Shown here one piece after another: positions 131 to 10,817 of a DNA stretch of 64,000 nucleotides; the stretch's first letter is position 1; every line of letters starts with the position of its first letter. The position numbers were made by a program, and so were the translations under genes. The notes beneath the pieces are model-generated. The model saw only the letters and a program-made list of their open reading frames with translations. It was not told the origin of the DNA and did not search any database. The stretch is from Fictibacillus marinisediminis (lineage in GTDB: Bacteria > Bacillota > Bacilli > Bacillales > Fictibacillaceae). Location: NCBI RefSeq assembly GCF_023149135.1, contig NZ_JAIWJX010000002.1:3410001-3474000 (forward strand). The letters are read 5' to 3'.

Positions 131-931
131 TTAAGCTTGCGAAATGGTAGGCAGGCCATGGACCAGAAGCCTCGAACTTCCAACCAGTTTCTGCGAGCTC
201 ATTTTTCCTTTTTTAATTTCTTCTAAAAATTCTTCCACTGTATCTGCTGGTATAAGGTATACGCTATTCCAGCACATATCGAATTGTTTCCCTGTTACAT
301 CCTTACCCCAATTTTTTTTTACTGAATCATGAAGGGAGAATTTGGCAAGTTCCTCATGAATCTGTTCACACGTTTTATTTATTTCTTTCTCTAACTCCTG
401 GTCTGCCAATTGATCGATCTTTCTTTTTTCAAAGAACTGTCTGCCAGGAGGCAATTTGCTTATCTCTTCTTTTTTTTCTTCTATTAATGAATTGTGGCCA
501 CTGATAAAGTCTTTTAATTTTGAGTGGTCACAATAGATTTTCAAATTCCATTCCTCGTTGCCTGCGAGTTGAGTGAACGAGTTGGTGATCTTCTTTTGGT
601 GCTCTTCAATTGTTTCGCTCAAGCTATTTTCGCTTGTATAAATCGTACAAAATTTCATTGGAATTACTGTATATTGTTTTTGGAGTGCCAATAGAGCTTC
701 ATGGTGATGAAGCGCCTTTCCTTGAAGCCATTCCATGTCGTTGTTCATTTTTTCTTTAATTGATTCTTCTGAATACGTGTCTGCATCAAGCTCACAGACA
801 ACGGCCGTAATTTCATTTAATTGAATGGTATATACTTCATTCTGTTCATCTAACCCCCGAAAAGAAGGAACTGCGTCTTTTATTGCTTCTTCGGTGGGAA
901 TAAGTCCATATAAATAAACGAGTTTCGCCAT
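131..931 (-). CDS. gvpL: Gas vesicle accessory protein GvpL (GvpF/GvpL family)
   Basis: 266 residues. The N-terminus (KLVYLYGLIP) and a C-terminal VHGLPTIS block are typical of the GvpL/GvpF family, cytosolic assembly factors that bind GvpA and are thought to help nucleate vesicles. A lysine/glutamate-rich helical middle (about residues 140-210) fits the family coiled-coil region. The start ATG has GAGGGA upstream. It sits between gvpG and gvpS, in the B. megaterium order. It is a paralogue of the gvpF product encoded just upstream in the same operon; assignment as L rather than F is by position. Confidence 0.9.
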   Translation of the reverse strand: MAKLVYLYGLIPTEEAIKDAVPSFRGLDEQNEVYTIQLNEITAVVCELDADTYSEESIKEKMNNDMEWLQGKALHHHEALLALQKQYTVIPMKFCTIYTSENSLSETIEEHQKKITNSFTQLAGNEEWNLKIYCDHSKLKDFISGHNSLIEEKKEEISKLPPGRQFFEKRKIDQLADQELEKEINKTCEQIHEELAKFSLHDSVKKNWGKDVTGKQFDMCWNSVYLIPADTVEEFLEEIKKGKMSSQKLVGSSRLLVHGLPTISQA

Positions 932-941
932 CTTTATTCCC

Positions 942-1199
942 TCACTTTTGCTTCTTCGTCAAATTCTCCCACTCTTCCATTTCCCGCTGTTTTGCTATCT
1001 CATATCTTACTAACAATACTTCTTCTTGTTCCTTGTAGACCTCTTCCGGTATTTCTTCAAGTTCATACATCATTTGAAGCTGAATCAATTTTTGCTGAAT
1101 AAATGAAATGTCATACAGTTCCCGATCCACTTCTTCTTTAACCTTTTCACCAACTTTAATGACAAGATTCATCGGGGACATTAAAAGTTTGTGGATCAT
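942..1199 (-). CDS. gvpG: Gas vesicle protein GvpG
   Basis: 85 residues, almost entirely helical and highly charged, with the family N-terminal pattern HKLLMSPMNLVIKVGEKV followed by a glutamate-rich helix. GvpG is a small accessory protein needed for vesicle assembly and found next to GvpF/GvpL. The start ATG overlaps the end of gvpF by 4 bases (ATGA), so translation is probably coupled. Ten bases separate it from gvpL. Confidence 0.9.
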   Translation of the reverse strand: MIHKLLMSPMNLVIKVGEKVKEEVDRELYDISFIQQKLIQLQMMYELEEIPEEVYKEQEEVLLVRYEIAKQREMEEWENLTKKQK

Positions 1200-1963
1200 G
1201 TTCCTTCCTCAACCTTTAGCTGAATATTGATGAAATTGTAGGCGGGCCATGGACCGGAATACTTAAAATCGAGTTTGTCCTCCCATTTTTCATGAACTTC
1301 ATTTACTTTTTGGTCAAAGAGTTCTTCCTTATCGCGGTCAATTAAAAAGGCTGCATTCAAAAGCATGGTTTCGCCAATCGGCTTGTTGATTTTTGAAGCT
1401 GTAGATGCTTCTTTTAATGGATTAAAGATTTCCGCTTTAATATCATTTTGAAGAGAACTGAAAAATTTTTGAGCCATTTCGCCAAGCTGAATGCGTTCAT
1501 AATACGCTGCATCCTGAGACTTGCCTTGAACCGTTTTTTTCATTTGTTCTACTTCAGGTTTTTTATTAATTTCCTCTTCCAGCCATTGTTTTTTGCCCAT
1601 TACCTTTAGACCAAGTTCTATTTTCCCCTTTATTTCTGGAAACAACTGTTCAAACTGCGGATACAAATTTTCCAGTAGAACTTTTACATCTTCTTTTGAA
1701 TTGAACACATTTCCAAAACTAATGGGAATGACCGTATCGTTTTGAGCCATAACAGAAGATATCACATCTTGATGGGCCATTAAGTTTTCCTTATTGGGAT
1801 GATAAATTTTCATTGGCATTTCTGCTGCTACAATGGCTGCATCCTTATAATGAATGGTAAACGTTGATCTTTCTTGGCCTTCAATGGTGACATTTCCAAA
1901 CTGATACTTATCCTCTGTTGTTTGTATACCGCAAAATATATAAATACCTGTTGATTGACTCAT
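1196..1963 (-). CDS. gvpF: Gas vesicle accessory protein GvpF
   Basis: 255 residues of the GvpF/GvpL family. The N-terminus reads GIYIFCGIQTTED, and the C-terminal YSGPWPAYNFINIQL is a family hallmark of the second, ferredoxin-like domain. GvpF is a cytosolic or surface-bound factor contacting GvpA early in vesicle nucleation. The ATG follows AAAGGAGTGAGCGATCA, so the Shine-Dalgarno sequence begins at the gvpN stop codon. It ends with a 4-base overlap onto gvpG. Confidence 0.93.
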   Translation of the reverse strand: MSQSTGIYIFCGIQTTEDKYQFGNVTIEGQERSTFTIHYKDAAIVAAEMPMKIYHPNKENLMAHQDVISSVMAQNDTVIPISFGNVFNSKEDVKVLLENLYPQFEQLFPEIKGKIELGLKVMGKKQWLEEEINKKPEVEQMKKTVQGKSQDAAYYERIQLGEMAQKFFSSLQNDIKAEIFNPLKEASTASKINKPIGETMLLNAAFLIDRDKEELFDQKVNEVHEKWEDKLDFKYSGPWPAYNFINIQLKVEEGT

Positions 1964-1970
1964 TGATCGC

Positions 1971-2888
1971 TCACTCCTTTACTGCTTTTTTGCATTCGCT
2001 TATTATTAGCTCTCTTAGCTTTGATGAATCCTTCTCATCCATGCATTTGGCGACAGGTGCGAATAAGATGTCCAGGCATAACCGCTGAAAATCTTCATCT
2101 TTACCGTTTATTGGGATATCGGCCTCATTTGCAAGTTTTGCAATCATAATAGAAGCCCGCAGACTTGGTCCGTTATTGCTGTTTTCACTGCATTTTTCTC
2201 TGAGAGCAGCAACAAAACTTGTTATGGCTTTTGCTTGATTTGAATCAACACCTGTTTTGCTGGAGACAATGGCGGCTTCAGTATCTTTGTCTGTATAATC
2301 TAACGGAATGGTAATGAGACGATCTAATAAAGCATCCTGTGTTTCGTAAACGCCTGCATATTCAGAAGGATTGCTCGTAAAGATTACTGTGAATTTCGGA
2401 TGGACTTTCATAAAGGGATCTTTTTGCTTTGTGCCGTATAACGGTAAAATCCCCTCTTCCAAAATTGAAAGGAAAATATTATTAGTTGAGGGCTCAGAAC
2501 GGGTAAATTCATCATAAATCAATGTGTACCCATTTTTTACAGCATCCAATAATCTTCCGTTATTCCACGTTTCCGTAACATTTTCTTCTTTTTTGTAAAC
2601 CGAACGAATAAAATTATCGACCACTTTTTGGGTGGTATATCCTGTATAGGCCCCGATTAGATCAGCATTCGATAACTCCCGGTTCCCATGCATTAACATA
2701 ACGGGACGTTTCCGCTTTTTCGCTAAAAGGAGTGCGAGTGTCGTCTTGCCAACTCCAGGCGGTCCTGTGAAATGGACGGGATAACCAGCTGAAAGATAGT
2801 TTAAGGAACGAGAAATTAAGTTTTTTATCCCGTCATGCTGCAGTAAATCTGAATTTACTTTGTTTTTATTTTCCGTTAAGACCGTCAT
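1971..2888 (-). CDS. gvpN: Gas vesicle AAA+ ATPase GvpN
   Basis: 305 residues, MoxR/GvpN-type AAA+ ATPase. The Walker A motif GPPGVGKTT is at residues 42-50, Walker B TLIYDE at 122-127, followed by the sensor-1-like segment TVIFTSNPSEYAG. GvpN is thought to use ATP in vesicle growth or shell remodelling; it is widespread but not always essential for vesicle formation. It lies between gvpR and gvpF as in B. megaterium. Length and motifs are complete, so it should be functional. Confidence 0.95.
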   Translation of the reverse strand: MTVLTENKNKVNSDLLQHDGIKNLISRSLNYLSAGYPVHFTGPPGVGKTTLALLLAKKRKRPVMLMHGNRELSNADLIGAYTGYTTQKVVDNFIRSVYKKEENVTETWNNGRLLDAVKNGYTLIYDEFTRSEPSTNNIFLSILEEGILPLYGTKQKDPFMKVHPKFTVIFTSNPSEYAGVYETQDALLDRLITIPLDYTDKDTEAAIVSSKTGVDSNQAKAITSFVAALREKCSENSNNGPSLRASIMIAKLANEADIPINGKDEDFQRLCLDILFAPVAKCMDEKDSSKLRELIISECKKAVKE

Positions 2889-2922
2889 TTTTTACTCCCC
2901 CATTCCAACCCATCATCGCCTC

Positions 2923-3186
2923 CTAGTCTTCAGCAATAGCACTTCGATATCGGATGTTTATCCTTGTGAAAGACGTTACTTCTTTCTTTTTGTTCAAGGA
3001 AACTTGATAGACGCCCAACATTTCATCTTTTGCATATTTCTTCATGTAATCTTTTTCTTCGATCACTTCCACAATGACTTTCCAGCCTTCATCTTCCGTG
3101 CCTTCAACTGATGTAATCTTGTGAGGGGGGGCTACATGCTCTTTGAAAAAGTCATTTACGGCTTCCATTAGTTCTTTTATTTCCAT
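2923..3186 (-). CDS. gvpR: Gas vesicle protein GvpR (GvpO-like)
   Basis: 87 residues. The segment from about residue 27 to 80 (EDEGWKVIVEVIEEKDYM, then DEMLGVYQVSLN and a Y-RY-R ending) matches the small alpha/beta GvpO/GvpR type. GvpO-like proteins are accessory or regulatory factors of unclear biochemical role. The start has an excellent site, GGTGGAGG, 7 bases upstream. It is the first gene after the stem-loop that follows gvpB, so its expression is probably lower than that of the shell gene. The name comes from operon position. Confidence 0.8.
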   Translation of the reverse strand: MEIKELMEAVNDFFKEHVAPPHKITSVEGTEDEGWKVIVEVIEEKDYMKKYAKDEMLGVYQVSLNKKKEVTSFTRINIRYRSAIAED

Positions 3187-3226
3187 TGACAGCCTCCACC
3201 TTTGCTATTAGAAATATTATAGTAGG

Positions 3227-3258
3227 TGGCCAGAGCAGCTTTTACATTGCTCTGGCCA
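3227..3258 (-). terminator. Perfect 11-bp stem-loop after gvpB (attenuator or mRNA stabiliser)
   Basis: TGGCCAGAGCA (3227-3237) pairs perfectly with TGCTCTGGCCA (3248-3258) across a 10-base loop, immediately downstream of the shell gene gvpB. No run of T follows on the minus strand, so it is not a complete intrinsic terminator. It more likely protects the 3' end of an abundant gvpB message or partly attenuates read-through into gvpR. Confidence 0.7.
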
Positions 3259-3266
3259 TAAAATAG

Positions 3267-3530
3267 TTAAATGCTAAAGGCTTGGCTGCCTCTTTCATTG
3301 GACTGAGATGGCAGGCCTTCTTTTTCAACTTCATCTCGCAGCAACCCAACTGCCTCAGCATATCGAAGCCATGTGTCGACACTTGCAATAACTACCCTAG
3401 CTTCGATAGTTATTAATTCTATTCCTACAAGAGAAACTCGAGCAAATACATCGATGACAACACCTTTATCAAGAATTCGGTCGATAACCTCTGCAAGACT
3501 TGAACTATCCGTACTTTTTTGAACACTCAT
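3267..3530 (-). CDS. gvpB: Gas vesicle major structural protein GvpB (GvpA family)
   Basis: 87 residues and nearly identical to what I recall of B. megaterium GvpA/GvpB. It has the [15 protein letters not shown] amphipathic helix, the [18 protein letters not shown] beta-hairpin and a second helix, then a short C-tail. The protein polymerises into the ribbed, gas-permeable, water-excluding vesicle shell. The RBS AGGAGA is 8 bases before the ATG, and it lies 37 bases after gvpQ. It is the only full GvpA-type gene in the window; B. megaterium has a second copy (gvpA) ahead of gvpP, which is not seen here. Confidence 0.96.
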
Positions 3531-5265: not shown

Positions 5266-5366
5266 TCAGTATGATAAATTTCCAATTCCTTTCCACTAAT
5301 GTCAGTTTCCTAACTAATGGTGTGTCCATATATATAAAAGAACGAAAAAAATTCGAGGTGAAATAC

Positions 5367-6023
5367 ATGAGTACCAATGTAATTGTGATTGCTGCTCATC
5401 CAGACGATGAAATCCTTGGCCCTGGTGGAACAATAAAAAAATTGGTTGAAAATGGCTATAAAGTGATTTCCGTGGTTGTTGCAAAGGGGCGTAAGGAAAA
5501 AGAGGATTGCATTAAAGAATCAATGTTAAAGGCTAATAAATACTTGGGGGTAGAAGAGGTTGTTTTTTTAGAATATCCGAATCTACTATTAGAAACTCTC
5601 CCTCTACATTCTTTAACTAAAGAAATTGAAGCGCTTTTGGCCAAGTATGAACCTTCCATGATTTTTACTCATCATTACGGAGACCTAAACCGGGACCATC
5701 AAATATTGTACCAGGCCGTAATTACTTCAGCCAGGCCATTGCCTGGGAAAAAGGCTGCTGAAATACTCTGTTTTGAAACAGTTTCTTCGTCTGAATGGAG
5801 TCAACATACGAACGATAAAGAATTTAAACCAAACTATTTTGTGGATATAACGGAAACCATTGATGATAAACTCCAATCTCTTTCATTTTATCACGTAGAG
5901 ATGATGGATTTTCCTCATCCCCGTTCATATCAAGGAGTGAAATCATTAGCACAGGTTCGAGGCATGACGGTTGGAGTAGATTATGCGGAAGCGTTTGAAA
6001 TCATCAGGAGGGTATGGAAATGA
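5367..6023 (+). CDS. PIG-L/LmbE-family zinc deacetylase
   Basis: 218 residues from the ATG at 5367, which follows GAGGTGA; the frame is open upstream but without an RBS. The zinc motif AHPDDE (residues 10-15, H11 and D14) and the distal THHYGDLNRDH (101-111, with H103 and D110/H111) are the family signatures. The rest is a Rossmann-like LmbE fold. Family members remove N-acetyl groups from GlcNAc-containing small molecules or lipids (bacillithiol, mycothiol, GPI, glycopeptide sugars). The sequence does not look like BshB1/BshB2 outside the motifs, so a role in the adjacent operon (glycosyltransferase, ligase, kinases) is more likely. First gene of that operon. Confidence 0.85.
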   Translation: MSTNVIVIAAHPDDEILGPGGTIKKLVENGYKVISVVVAKGRKEKEDCIKESMLKANKYLGVEEVVFLEYPNLLLETLPLHSLTKEIEALLAKYEPSMIFTHHYGDLNRDHQILYQAVITSARPLPGKKAAEILCFETVSSSEWSQHTNDKEFKPNYFVDITETIDDKLQSLSFYHVEMMDFPHPRSYQGVKSLAQVRGMTVGVDYAEAFEIIRRVWK

Positions 6024-6163
6024 CAGACCGTCAATATTCAACACAGCCTCCATTATTTATCCCCTATCCCCATTTAGTATCTGCAATGGATCAATATTAT
6101 GGACTGACAACAGCTTTAAAAAAGAAAAAAACAAACCAGATATCCAGAAACCCTTTGAATTAA
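6020..6163 (+). CDS. 47-residue mini-protein between deacetylase and glycosyltransferase
   Basis: A short frame of 47 codons. The ATG overlaps the deacetylase stop (ATGA) and has a near-perfect AGGAGGG 7 bases upstream. It ends 14 bases before the glycosyltransferase ATG, filling exactly the gap between those genes. The product starts MTDRQYSTQPPLFIPYPHLV, continues SAMDQYYGLTTAL and ends in a lysine-rich tail (KKKKTNQISRNPLN). It has no signal peptide, no membrane helix and no cysteine. I recognise no family. It could be a substrate or carrier peptide for the ATP-grasp enzyme or glycosyltransferase, a small spore-coat-like protein, or a coupling peptide that drives translation of the next gene, whose own RBS is poor. 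Confidence 0.6.
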   Translation: MTDRQYSTQPPLFIPYPHLVSAMDQYYGLTTALKKKKTNQISRNPLN

Positions 6164-6177
6164 AACAAAAGAAAAAC

Positions 6178-7344
6178 ATGAAAATCTTAATCACTACTTT
6201 CTGGAACTACCCTTTTGTTGGCGGATTGCAAAACTACATCACTGCACTTAAATCAGGATTGGAAAGCTTAGGCCATATTGTCCATATTGCTGCACCTAAC
6301 CACTTCGAAAATGATGGCATTGACGGAATGCGCCAAACAATTATGGAGGATGTAAAACAATTTTTTGTTAAAAGGTATGGAAGCTTCAGTGAAAAGATCA
6401 TCCAAAATGTTTGGCAAATGCGCAGATATGAATGGATGCTAAAATGCGTGGATATTTCTAGGTATGATATTATTCACGCACAAGATCGGTTTACAGCAAA
6501 TGTCATGTGCCAGCTTAATGAAGGTTATCAAAAACCGCTGCTGTTCACTCCCCACGGATTTATGACACACACACGGCTAAAGTTTAATCTAATTGAAAAA
6601 GGGTCTGTAGAAGAAGCCTACTTTTTGGCCATTGACCAAAAAGCCGTTCAAAGCTCGACCCATATCATTAGTTTATGTGAATATTTTCGACCATTGCTAA
6701 ACAGTTTAGGTACTGAGGAAAGCAAATTGACAACTGTTTACACTGGAATTGATTTTGGAATTGCCCCTCCAGGGAAATCAAGGAAAACTGCAGATAAGAC
6801 AATTATTACCTGTATTTCTCGCCTTCGGCCGCGTAAAGGACATAAATACCTGTTTGAAGCACTTTGGCTCATTAGAAACAAGCTTGAAAATGTAGAAATA
6901 TGGATTGTAGGGGAAGGATCAATGAGAGAAGAGCTTGAACGCCAATGTCAGGATTTACAGCTGGGAAATGTGTATTTTCTAGGAAGGAGAAAGGATATTC
7001 CAAAAATATTAAAACGATCAGATATTTTTGTCCTGCCAACTACCAGTGATACACTTCCCATTTCTGTGATAGAGGCGATGTTTGCCCGGAAGGCGATCAT
7101 TACAACAAACTGTGGCGGAATACCGGAAATTATTCAGGACAATCATTCGGGGCTTATAGCTGAACCGGGAAACTCTCAACAACTAGCTGAAAAATTAACG
7201 ATCCTTCTGGACGATTCCATTCTAAGGAATTCTTTAGCACAAAATGCTAAATGCTTTGCTGAACAGCATTTAACGATTGCCAGTATGGCTAGAAAGATTG
7301 AGGAAGTTTATCAATCTTTTTTGCACAGAGGTGAGATGCAGTGA
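6178..7344 (+). CDS. Group 1 (GT4, GT-B fold) glycosyltransferase
   Basis: 388 residues from the ATG at 6178 (MKILITTFWNYPFVGGLQNY). A longer in-frame reading from 5983 would run through the deacetylase and mini-protein and is rejected. The N-terminal domain has the GG-x-x-x-Y acceptor-side loop. The C-terminal GT4 donor domain includes CISRLRPRKGHKYL, WIVGEGSMREEL, the NVYFLGRRKDI segment and the SDTLPISVIEAM...GGIPEII nucleotide-sugar block. It probably transfers a sugar from a nucleotide donor to a small molecule, peptide or glycan; the donor cannot be read. The RBS is weak (AAAGAAAAAC), so it is likely translationally coupled. It overlaps the next gene by 4 bases (GTGA). Confidence 0.88.
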   Translation: MKILITTFWNYPFVGGLQNYITALKSGLESLGHIVHIAAPNHFENDGIDGMRQTIMEDVKQFFVKRYGSFSEKIIQNVWQMRRYEWMLKCVDISRYDIIHAQDRFTANVMCQLNEGYQKPLLFTPHGFMTHTRLKFNLIEKGSVEEAYFLAIDQKAVQSSTHIISLCEYFRPLLNSLGTEESKLTTVYTGIDFGIAPPGKSRKTADKTIITCISRLRPRKGHKYLFEALWLIRNKLENVEIWIVGEGSMREELERQCQDLQLGNVYFLGRRKDIPKILKRSDIFVLPTTSDTLPISVIEAMFARKAIITTNCGGIPEIIQDNHSGLIAEPGNSQQLAEKLTILLDDSILRNSLAQNAKCFAEQHLTIASMARKIEEVYQSFLHRGEMQ

Positions 7345-8519
7345 GGCATGATCTACCAGCCGTAGTTTTAGATTTAAGTGCGACTGGGATCGGGATAGTT
7401 CGGAGTTTAGCCGAACAAGGCATAAAAGTATATGCATTTGATACAGAGACTAAGAAAAAAATTGGAAAAACCAGATATGCAAGCTGCGGTGTATGCCCTA
7501 ATCCTGTTTCTGAGGAAGAAAAATTAATAGAGCACCTTACAAGGCTAGGGCAAACATTTGAGGAGAAAGCGGTACTCTACGCTGGATCGGATGACTATGT
7601 ACGCTTTATATCAAAATACAGAGATCAGTTGTCTTTGAATTATCTTTTTCTTTTACCTGACCATTCATTAATCGAGGCTGTGTTAGATAAAAGATTAACC
7701 TACGATTTATCAGTAAAATATAACGTTCCATGTCCTAAAACGTTCCTTATTGATGATGAAGATCATCTTGAGCGGATTGTTTCTGAAGTAATGTTCCCCT
7801 GTATATTAAAACCAGTCATTTCCTCCAATTTCCGGAACCGTATCGATCATCATCTGTATAGAAAAGCAATATTAGTTGAAAATCCAGTCCAGTTAAGGGA
7901 AGAGTACCTCTTTTACAGCCGTTTTGGAGAGCTCATGATTCAAGAGGTGATTCCTGGAGAAGAGGCATCCATTTATTCAGTAAAAACCTTATTTGATGAG
8001 GAAATGAATCTAATTGGACTCTGGATGAATCAAAAACTCCACCAATTTCCTCCCGACTTCGGTTCAACCGCCATGGCGTTAAGTATCAGGGATGAGGACG
8101 TAATAAATATGGCAGTGCCATTTTTGCGTAATATCAAGTTAAAAGGCCTGTCAATTGCGGAATTTAAGAGGGATGAAAGAGACGGCAAGTTGAAATTTAT
8201 TGAGATTAACCCCAGGATTGGGTTAACCCAAAGATTGTCAATAGCCTGCGGTGTGAATTTAGCATACTTGAACTATTTGCTGGTAACTGGACAAAATCCT
8301 TCCCCAGTGACGAAACAGACAGAGGGCATCAAATGGGTTTACCTGGTCCGCGATTTTCTATCCTTCCGCCAAAACAAAAAAAACGGGAAAATGACAATCA
8401 CCGAATGGATAAAAAGCCTTTCCGGACATAAGGTAGAAGCTTTATTCAGCTGGAAGGATCCACTTCCATTTATAAGGAGCTTTGTGTCCCACATTCGATA
8501 TTTATGGACAAGAAAATGA
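7341..8519 (+). CDS. ATP-grasp ligase of unknown substrate
   Basis: 392 residues with a GTG start overlapping the glycosyltransferase stop and AGAGGTGAG upstream. The N-terminal pre-ATP-grasp domain starts AVVLDLSATGIGIVRSLAEQGIKV. The ATP-binding part has FPCILKPVISS (the grasp lysine) and a GELMIQEVIPGEE segment. The metal-binding end reads IAEFKRDERDGKLKFIEINPRIG, with the E-x-N-P-R signature. The family joins a carboxylate to an amine or other nucleophile with ATP, as in carboxylate-amine ligases and peptide-modifying ligases. It may couple an amino acid to the deacetylated amino sugar made by its neighbours, but that is inference. Confidence 0.88.
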   Translation: MRHDLPAVVLDLSATGIGIVRSLAEQGIKVYAFDTETKKKIGKTRYASCGVCPNPVSEEEKLIEHLTRLGQTFEEKAVLYAGSDDYVRFISKYRDQLSLNYLFLLPDHSLIEAVLDKRLTYDLSVKYNVPCPKTFLIDDEDHLERIVSEVMFPCILKPVISSNFRNRIDHHLYRKAILVENPVQLREEYLFYSRFGELMIQEVIPGEEASIYSVKTLFDEEMNLIGLWMNQKLHQFPPDFGSTAMALSIRDEDVINMAVPFLRNIKLKGLSIAEFKRDERDGKLKFIEINPRIGLTQRLSIACGVNLAYLNYLLVTGQNPSPVTKQTEGIKWVYLVRDFLSFRQNKKNGKMTITEWIKSLSGHKVEALFSWKDPLPFIRSFVSHIRYLWTRK

Positions 8520-8552
8520 GTTTTTCAATATAAATTAGGGGGGATTTCTGCA

Positions 8553-9623
8553 TTGAGCAGTAAAGAAGAAATCGTAAAACAGTGGGATCAATTTGGATGG
8601 AAAAAAAAGTTCGAATTTTTCTCAAAAAATGAAGTTGCGCTGCCTGAAGATAAAATAGAATGTCTTAAAAATTCCAGGGAAAAAACAAGTATCTGGAAAC
8701 TGATCCTTACAGATGGCCTAAACAGTCTTCCAGTAGTCCTCAAAATATATAAACCACCTTTTAATGAAAATCATAGTGTGGAAATTAACATGTATCACAG
8801 CGGATATACTGCCATGGCTGAATTTATGCCAAAAATGTATTGGATTGAGGAAAGAATAAATGATGACGAAATCTGGCTATTTACAGAATTTGTTCAACCT
8901 TTGCGCGGGCAAATCAAGATTACGCCCAAACATCTCGATCTTATCATTCCGACTGCTGCAAAATTCCATGCCCGCACATTTGGTGATCGGATAACCAGGT
9001 ACAAGGATTCTTTTGATTACTGGCTGCCCCGATTTGATTCTGCGCTGGCAAACACAGAAAGACGCAACCATATTGAAAAAACAAAAGAATATCTAGATCT
9101 TGCGATGAAAGATCCAGCTGTAAGAGAAATAGTAGAACCTGGATACAACACTATTCAAAATATCCTGCAAAAGGGGCCAATTTTCTTTCCGGAAATTATG
9201 GAAGCAGGCCAGTGCCTCATCCACGGTGATCTTCATCTTCATAATCTTTGCTGCCAAGACGGCAGGGATGAAGAAAATTGGAGCATTCAAATGATTGACT
9301 GGGAGTCTGCCAAGTATGCACCCTGTTCATTTGATATGGTTGTTCTGGTTGAATTGTTGATTGATTTCAGAACGGACTGGCAAAAAAGGGAAGAAGAAAT
9401 AAGAAGTCATTGCATGCTGTTATACGCTCAGGAAATGCAAAAAGAAGGAATAACCTTTCATACAGACACCCTAAAGCTATTAAAAATGGCTTATTTACAA
9501 AGAACATTAGAGAAAAGACTCCTAAATCACCTTAGAAGGGTATTGAATGGAGAACAAAGTGTTCTGCTAAAAAGATACATTGAAAAAATAAACAGCTGGG
9601 GAAAGGAATTGGGTTTATACTAG
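8553..9623 (+). CDS. APH/CotS-like phosphotransferase (protein-kinase fold)
   Basis: 356 residues starting at TTG 8553, 9 bases after GGGGGG. Kinase-fold landmarks: VVLKIYKPP (K64, ATP lysine), a hinge WLFTEFVQPLRG, the catalytic loop LIHGDLHLHN (222-231, D226 and N231) and the metal-binding IDWE (D249). These place it in the aminoglycoside/choline phosphotransferase superfamily, which also includes the spore-coat proteins CotS and YutH. It probably phosphorylates a sugar hydroxyl or small metabolite. Context with the GT4 and PIG-L genes suggests an amino-sugar-containing substrate. A 33-base gap separates it from the ATP-grasp gene. Confidence 0.82.
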   Translation: MSSKEEIVKQWDQFGWKKKFEFFSKNEVALPEDKIECLKNSREKTSIWKLILTDGLNSLPVVLKIYKPPFNENHSVEINMYHSGYTAMAEFMPKMYWIEERINDDEIWLFTEFVQPLRGQIKITPKHLDLIIPTAAKFHARTFGDRITRYKDSFDYWLPRFDSALANTERRNHIEKTKEYLDLAMKDPAVREIVEPGYNTIQNILQKGPIFFPEIMEAGQCLIHGDLHLHNLCCQDGRDEENWSIQMIDWESAKYAPCSFDMVVLVELLIDFRTDWQKREEEIRSHCMLLYAQEMQKEGITFHTDTLKLLKMAYLQRTLEKRLLNHLRRVLNGEQSVLLKRYIEKINSWGKELGLY

Positions 9624-9698
9624 CAGATCAACGTTAAAAACTTAAATACACGAATTGAATTGCTGCTGAAGTCTAATTTTAATAAAGGAAGTGTATGA

Positions 9699-10268
9699 AT
9701 GGAAAGTATAACGGCAATAGCAGCCAGGAATAAAGGAAAATTAGATTTGGAAAATCTCACAAAATACAAACAGCTTGGCAAGGGCGGTGATGGAGCGGTT
9801 TTTCAAATTAGTCACAATAAATGTGTAAAAATTTTCTGGAAAGAAAAAACTCAAAAACTTGAACTGAAGGCATTACAGAAAGGACAATCATCCCCAATCA
9901 TACCCCGACTCTATGAGTATGGATCCAACTATATTGTCATGGAGTATATCAACGGATACAATCTGAAAAAATACCTCAAAAAAAAGAAACGTTTTTCTGG
10001 TTCAAAAATAAAACAAATATTATACATGCTTTCTGAATTTAAGAGGATAGGTTTTTTGAGACACGATACAGAGGTACGTCATATTTACTTCAACGAGAAG
10101 GGGGAGGTAAAAGTGATCGACCACAAAAGGGCATTTACCACTGATAGAACTTATCCCATGAAGTTAATATCGGGTCTTGAAAAGCTCGGATATGCAGAGG
10201 AATTCCTTCAAGGGGTCAAACAGATTTCGCCAACCATTTTTAATGAATGGGCAAAATATTATCAATAA
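9699..10268 (+). CDS. Small RIO/YrzF-like protein kinase
   Basis: 189 residues, shorter than a full Ser/Thr kinase. The glycine loop is LGKGGDGAVF (26-35), the ATP lysine is in CVKIF (K44) and the hinge is IVMEYINGYNL. A shortened C-lobe has RHDTEVRHIYF in place of HRDxxxxN and a VIDH in place of DFG (D141). This resembles the YrzF/YbdM group of compact Bacillus kinases or RIO-type kinases. D123 and D141 keep catalysis plausible, although the usual catalytic-loop Asn is replaced (H128 or nearby). It ends the plus-strand operon; 75 bases separate it from the phosphotransferase. Confidence 0.75.
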   Translation: MESITAIAARNKGKLDLENLTKYKQLGKGGDGAVFQISHNKCVKIFWKEKTQKLELKALQKGQSSPIIPRLYEYGSNYIVMEYINGYNLKKYLKKKKRFSGSKIKQILYMLSEFKRIGFLRHDTEVRHIYFNEKGEVKVIDHKRAFTTDRTYPMKLISGLEKLGYAEEFLQGVKQISPTIFNEWAKYYQ

Positions 10269-10433: not shown

Positions 10434-10462
10434 AAAAAACCACCAACATTATGTATTGGTGG
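10434..10462 (-). terminator. Hairpin overlapping the ssrA 3' CCA, followed by a T run
   Basis: On the minus strand CCACCAA-N9-TTGGTGG-TTTTTT. The 5' arm contains the CCA end of tmRNA itself, so formation of the terminator hairpin would compete with the acceptor stem until processing. Arms at 10440-10446 and 10456-10462. Confidence 0.65.
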
Positions 10463-10817
10463 AGACGGTGGGAGTCGAACCCACGTCCAAAGATAACGGC
10501 ACTTAAGCTTCTACGAGTGTAGTCGATACATTCGCGTTTCGCAGCCTCATTTGCCTATCGACAGGCGTTTGAAGCGCTAGCCTGATTGTGCTCTTCCATC
10601 GTCCTCAGGCGGAGGACAGCCGGCGTAGCCCACTAAGAGTGAGACCCTTACCCTACCACATGGGCGATGGAGGGAGGATCAGCTAAAGTGCTATTACGCA
10701 GCTAAAGCTAGGTTGTTGTTAGTTTTGCCAGTTATAGGCGTTGGCGTTTTAACGAGGCCGACCCCCTCGACTCGCAACTTAAGCTCGAACTATCCCTGTC
10801 GAATCCGTAACGTCCCC
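10457..10817 (-). ncRNA. ssrA: tmRNA (ssrA)
   Basis: 361 nucleotides. The 5' end GGGGACGTTACGGATTCGAC and the 3' end GGTTCGACTCCCACC...CCACCA form the tRNA-Ala-like domain; the CCA is encoded. The tag reading frame (10697-10729) encodes GKTNNNLALAA, followed by TAA TAG (10691-10696). With the initial tRNA-borne alanine the tag is AGKTNNNLALAA, ending in the LAA that ClpXP recognises. The RNA rescues stalled ribosomes together with SmpB, encoded 120 bases upstream on the same strand. A perfect sigma-A promoter lies upstream, leaving a leader of about 70 bases to be removed by RNase P. Confidence 0.98.

Follow-up and report, generated by a model that had tools for sequence, protein, structure and literature searches.

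A conserved gene block with a predicted role in building a modified hexosamine glycan on the spores of Fictibacillus and related bacteria

Introduction

Sugars on the spore surface matter for adhesion, for hydrophobicity and for the assembly of the exosporium. To our knowledge, few spore-surface sugar genes have been assigned outside Bacillus subtilis and the B. cereus group. Among coat proteins, CotS and CotSA pair an APH-fold protein with a neighboring GT4 protein. A GT4 glycosyltransferase, a PIG-L enzyme and a ligase also mark the order of events in bacillithiol synthesis, where the ligase presumably belongs to a different class from the ATP-grasp enzyme considered here. We know of no comparable PIG-L/ATP-grasp/APH set in the sps and yfn operons of B. 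subtilis. Those operons are of the kind that we propose here: passages of PMC517825 present them as expressed in the mother cell and as serving sugars of the spore's outer surface.

A further point of comparison is plasmid pBM600 of Priestia megaterium. Passages of PMC4674009 report that strains lacking pBM600 have no exosporium, that pBM500 was not separable from pBM600, and that bxpB, which is carried on pBM600, plays only a minor role. The genes described below do not appear in those passages.

We analyzed a 64,000-nucleotide stretch of the Fictibacillus marinisediminis genome, called the window throughout. It holds a conserved block of genes that is probably expressed in the mother cell during sporulation, and whose predicted product is a modified hexosamine glycan of the spore surface.

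Results

The first-pass annotation had placed a set of plus-strand genes at 5367-10268. Its coordinates hold, as do its domain calls for PIG-L, GT4, ATP-grasp and an APH-type kinase. The features of the block are as follows.

5300..5336, plus strand: putative sporulation promoter, TGTCAGTTTC (5300-5309), 17 bases, CATATATATA (5327-5336); from upstream alignments and pattern counts
5367..6023, plus strand: PIG-L family zinc de-N-acetylase; Pfam PF02585, 83.5 bits (cut-off 28.2)
6020..6163, plus strand: tail ORF (47 residues) that belongs to the N-terminus of GT4a and is cut off in the window by a one-base difference; in frame with the GT4 in L007-L020
6118..6123, plus strand: A-run of six A, against seven in L006 and L007; from sequence comparison
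6178..7344, plus strand: GT4a glycosyltransferase body; Pfam Glycos_transf_1, 139.8 bits (cut-off 26.4)
7341..8519, plus strand: ATP-grasp ligase, carbamoyl-phosphate-synthase-like; Pfam ATPgrasp_Ter (PF15632), 36.1 bits (cut-off 29.1)
8553..9623, plus strand: APH/ecdysteroid-kinase-like small-molecule kinase; Pfam APH, 33.5 bits (cut-off 23.2), and EcKL, 24.5 bits
9699..10268, plus strand: small protein-kinase-like protein; below-cut-off Pkinase, ABC1 and RIO1 matches; near the block in most relatives

Catalytic motifs are present in the PIG-L protein (HPDD and HHYGDLNRDH), the ATP-grasp ligase (EINPR) and the APH-type kinase (HGDLHLHN and IDW), and we take the SDTLPISVIE stretch of the GT4 and the kinase HD...RH...VID stretches to be catalytic sites. 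The last gene had been called a small RIO/YrzF-like kinase. The term "kinase-like" is fair, while a RIO identity is not established because the scores lie under every curated cut-off (Pkinase, 28.4 against 31.7; RIO1, 15.4 against 22).

Immediately 3′ of the block lies a tmRNA gene (tag GKTNNNLALAA; 10457-10817, minus strand), and the genes past it are common to the window and the related loci L006 and L007. A gas-vesicle cluster (131-3530, minus strand) also adjoins the block and comprises two GvpL/GvpF genes, GvpG, an AAA protein that we take to be GvpN, GvpO and a gas vesicle protein. A general link between this cluster and the block was rejected because only L007, among 40 related stretches, has those genes.

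The gene set is conserved well beyond the window. A scan of genome contigs gave 16 loci, 15 of which, from Fictibacillus, Neobacillus, Peribacillus and Bacillus sp., carry the block; these 15 include L006, where PIG-L is reduced to 36 codons. The sixteenth, a MAG at 27% identity, is without the block. In the closest Fictibacillus loci the ATP-grasp ligase is 96-97% identical to that of the window. Across a sample of 397 genomes of the order, 68 match the ligase at E<=1e-10 and 24 do so at 40% identity or more. The block is found in 22 of these 24, which represent 12 families and include the window's own genome, entered from the window; one of them (L071) has the block without PIG-L. The other two (L087 and L088) have a lone ATP-grasp gene. 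The first-pass annotation had asked whether the genes stay together elsewhere, and the recurrence of their order in 22 genomes of 12 families goes beyond chance. No such block was observed in 17 stretches with an ATP-grasp protein at about 33% identity or less (L034-L040, L089-L098). Presence is patchy even within the genus, at four of seven Fictibacillus genomes. Co-occurrence with SigK cannot discriminate, because all 397 genomes match it (347 over the cut-off).

Many relatives carry a fuller form of the block, in the order (kinase)-PIG-L-GT4a-ATP-grasp-APH-GT4b-GalE-type epimerase. Among the 22 block genomes, GT4b is present in 14 and the epimerase in nine; more distant epimerases lie near L078, and the L081 contig ends before that point. 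In 14 of the 22 the kinase-like gene lies no more than 4.5 kb away and on the same strand; it is on the other strand in two, at 6.7-7.7 kb in two and not seen in four. In the 15 block-bearing stretches of the contig scan, the kinase-like gene occurs in 13 and an epimerase follows APH in 10; the epimerase gene of L015 is split between two ORFs and that of L014 is shortened. One species has GT4a and the ATP-grasp ligase fused in a single open frame (L083, 6670-9150). Large ORFs of 660, 364, 354 and 821 residues with no Pfam match lie upstream of the block in L080 and L081.

An upstream element recurs with the block. The strict pattern TGTC-N4-TC-N15-18-CATA lies upstream of PIG-L in 15 of the 16 Fictibacillus/Neobacillus stretches from which it was derived, and in seven of 20 others, where shuffled sequences give 0.01 per 20 and at most 1 across 200 sets. 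Two looser patterns, composed after the alignments had been seen, occur in 11 of the 20 others (shuffles 0.02) but in four of the 16 source stretches, and in 16 of the 20 (shuffles 0.125) and 12 of the 16, respectively. Elsewhere in the same loci the strict, middle and loosest patterns match 6, 9 and 81 times in 1,287,136 strand-bases. In these counts and in the coat-marker counts below, L067/L015 and L072/L104, which are the same stretches by coordinates, were counted once.

Most Neobacillus loci carry ATC-N16-CATATAATT at this position, and the -10 box CATATAATT is that given for the sigma-K-dependent bclB gene in a passage of PMC4750369. We read the conserved element, with its sigma-K-like -10 box, as a putative sporulation promoter. 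No sigma-70-type site was found on the plus strand upstream of 5367, and a scan with a sigma-E consensus gave p<=0.05 in only six of 36 stretches, a weak result.

Several structural comparisons bear on the substrate. The best solved relatives of the PIG-L protein are diacetylchitobiose deacetylases, the closest solved relative of GT4a is a GalNAc-transferase (over residues 190-382 only, the C-terminal half), and that of the L008 epimerase is a UDP-glucose 4-epimerase. A model of the APH-type kinase (pLDDT 80) has TM values of about 0.5 or less with its fold matches, which are aminoglycoside phosphotransferases and a fructosamine-3-kinase. The ATP-grasp ligase scores 56.8 bits with NF009402 (cut-off 218). 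Amidation is the least certain step of the scheme proposed below, because the PDB matches of this ligase are weak and its structure model (pLDDT 43) was unusable and left out of the fold search. The idea that the enzymes would act together on an amino-sugar conjugate gains support as a reading.

Coat genes lie near the block in some species. A survey of 40 stretches, 36 of them distinct and with the block, found at least one of CotH, CotG-like or CotX/V in 10 of the 36 and none in 26. CotH occurs in seven of the 40 (L008-L013 and L020), a CotG-like gene in six (L008-L013) and CotX/V in four (L105, L072=L104 and L073); none of these three markers is near the block in the window. HMM matches support CotH in L008 (298 bits), a CotG/ExsB N-terminal domain in L010 (30.5 bits, cut-off 28) and, for two proteins of pBM600, Coat_X. 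L072 also has an Enas match, which falls below its cut-off.

The ATP-grasp ligase also matches 37 Priestia plasmid records. On pBM600 and on a plasmid of strain A, the block is situated amid glycosyltransferases and annotated spore coat proteins. A match to a known spore-coat locus had been raised as a check, and such a match exists, to the spore-surface region of plasmid pBM600 in P. megaterium. On the Priestia plasmids L104 and L105 the block is surrounded by many more glycosyltransferases and epimerases and by a YncE-like beta-propeller protein, and L104 has a very large tandem-95 repeat protein nearby.

The 47-residue ORF had been taken for a separate gene whose product the block enzymes might decorate. 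Matching sequence begins at the PIG-L stop and continues in frame into the GT4 in 14 related loci (L007-L020), and the A-run at 6118-6123 has six A in the window against seven in L006 and L007. Because the tail is in frame in 14 loci and the window has one A fewer, we assign the ORF to the GT4 as its N-terminal tail; decoration of a small protein is unsupported, because the ORF belongs to the GT4 itself. A separate 47-residue substrate peptide is ruled out for the 14 loci. A split form does exist in L068 and L069, two other species whose tails are separate ORFs of 66 and 61 residues and whose GT4 begins at a TTG preceded by AAAGGGGAAG. These two species show six synonymous and five other codon differences over the first 57 codons of the tail, too few for any claim of selection.

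The tail carries a motif like FPYPYLI..LDQYYGV and an often lysine-rich linker, and is found on both GT4a and GT4b. A pattern search of 1032 ORFs of at least 120 residues, taken from loci longer than 5 kb and with repeat matches dropped, gave 44 distinct matches, of which 42 are GT4 N-termini and two are not. The pattern is present in 43 of 52 GT4-body ORFs from 36 loci, and the motif was recognized by eye in four more (GT4a of L075, L076 and L079; GT4b of L078). GT4b of L033 has part of the motif, L068 and L069 carry it on their separate tail ORFs, and two distant pBM600 GT4s (~29% identity) lack it. This short glycosyltransferase tail, whether fused or split, may be a docking signal.

We also compared the block with described gene families. 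Like BshA and BshB, it pairs a GT4 with PIG-L de-N-acetylation. It is not a bacillithiol locus: the GT4 scores 95.1 bits against the BshA cut-off of 273.7, and PIG-L scores 58.4 against 182.5 for BshB1 and 48.5 against 195.25 for BshB2. Away from the block, the same genome holds bshA (L002, 581 bits) and BshB1/BshB2 matches (L002, 308.4; L001, 362). The suggestion that the APH-type kinase is CotS-like does not stand, as TIGR02906 finds five places in this genome (E<=0.001), none of which exceeds the cut-off or lies at this locus. By its PF15632 score, the ATP-grasp ligase carries the ATPgrasp_Ter domain.

Discussion

The gene order is conserved, the catalytic motifs are intact, an upstream element is conserved and coat genes are nearby in some species. 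We propose that the set is a spore-surface sugar operon of new make-up, with the mechanism outlined here; its product would be a hexosamine glycan that has lost N-acetyl groups and perhaps been amidated and phosphorylated. A spore-surface role had been offered as one option in the first-pass annotation, and it is strengthened by the coat-gene neighbors, the promoter element and pBM600. Several points count against this reading: 26 of the 36 distinct stretches have none of the three coat markers; pBM600 carries many other genes, including bxpB, and is inseparable from pBM500; the sigma-E scan is weak, and the looser promoter patterns postdate the alignments, the middle one being rare in the source set; the block is patchy within the genus; PIG-L is truncated in L006 and the GT4a tail is broken in the window; the window's block has no epimerase beside it and its genome yielded no GT4b; and the ATP-grasp model is unusable.

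In the proposed scheme, a GalE-type epimerase would supply a UDP-galacto-type amino sugar, which GT4a, and GT4b where present, would transfer. The epimerase is beside the block in many relatives and missing there in the window, and no GT4b was found in the window's own genome. PIG-L would strip the acetyl group and expose an amine. The ATP-grasp enzyme would couple this amine to a carboxylate, possibly that of an amino acid; phosphorylation of a sugar hydroxyl would fall to the APH-type kinase. Through the short tail the transferases may bind a partner or the surface of the forespore, and the small kinase could modify or regulate a partner.

Work of the 1980s reportedly found a galactosamine-6-phosphate polymer in B. 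megaterium, where it formed part of the outer layer of the spore; the literature that we searched gave no account of it. It is tempting, if rather improbable, to see the block as the biosynthetic locus of this polymer, with a glycan that is phosphorylated and aminoacylated. The epimerase, tail-docked GalNAc-transferases, PIG-L and an aminoglycoside-kinase-like hexosamine kinase would then build the chain, and the ATP-grasp enzyme would add amino acids to its free amines.

Other products can be imagined for the same enzymes. By bacillithiol logic, a GT4 would join an N-acetyl sugar to an acceptor, PIG-L would free the amine, the ATP-grasp enzyme would add an amino acid and the kinase would phosphorylate, giving a soluble small molecule of sporulation. 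The order of events in bacillithiol synthesis and the sub-cut-off BshA and BshB1 matches speak for this route; we judge it unlikely, as true bshA, bshB1 and bshB2 genes are elsewhere in the genome, and the two GT4s and epimerase of many relatives, together with the coat-gene neighbors, fit a glycan better. The enzymes might instead modify spore-surface glycoproteins directly, placing O-glycans on coat or exosporium proteins in place of a free polysaccharide. The coat genes in 10 of the 36 distinct stretches and the resemblance of the GT4 tail to a docking motif would suit such a role, which nevertheless seems distinctly improbable given that no acceptor protein consistently accompanies the block and that the neighbors vary between families.

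It is also doubtful that the window's block is a decaying remnant. A one-base difference cuts its GT4a tail, GT4b is missing from its genome, presence is patchy, and in the related L006 a deletion has left PIG-L as a 36-codon remnant (6584-6691) in an otherwise intact block. However, the other frames of the window are open and 90-97% identical to those of L006 and L007, the split tail recurs in L068 and L069 with a separately started GT4, and the single missing A might reflect a mistake in the assembly. The window's copy may nonetheless be impaired.

We found no account of this gene set in the literature searched, and for the spore-surface glycan that we favor the nearest counterpart is pBM600 (NC_014031, P. 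megaterium QM B1551). It has PIG-L, a tailed GT4, ATP-grasp, APH and small kinase genes in the same order as the window, with two CotX/V genes and many glycosyltransferases near the block. It differs in that the block is plasmid-borne, in that APH and the kinase are separated by two other genes, and in that its ATP-grasp ligase is ~50% identical to that of the window; the function known for pBM600 is that of the whole plasmid. The gene set is well delimited, widespread and open to test, it occurs on a plasmid already linked to exosporium formation, and the charged amino-sugar glycan that it predicts would be an unusual one.
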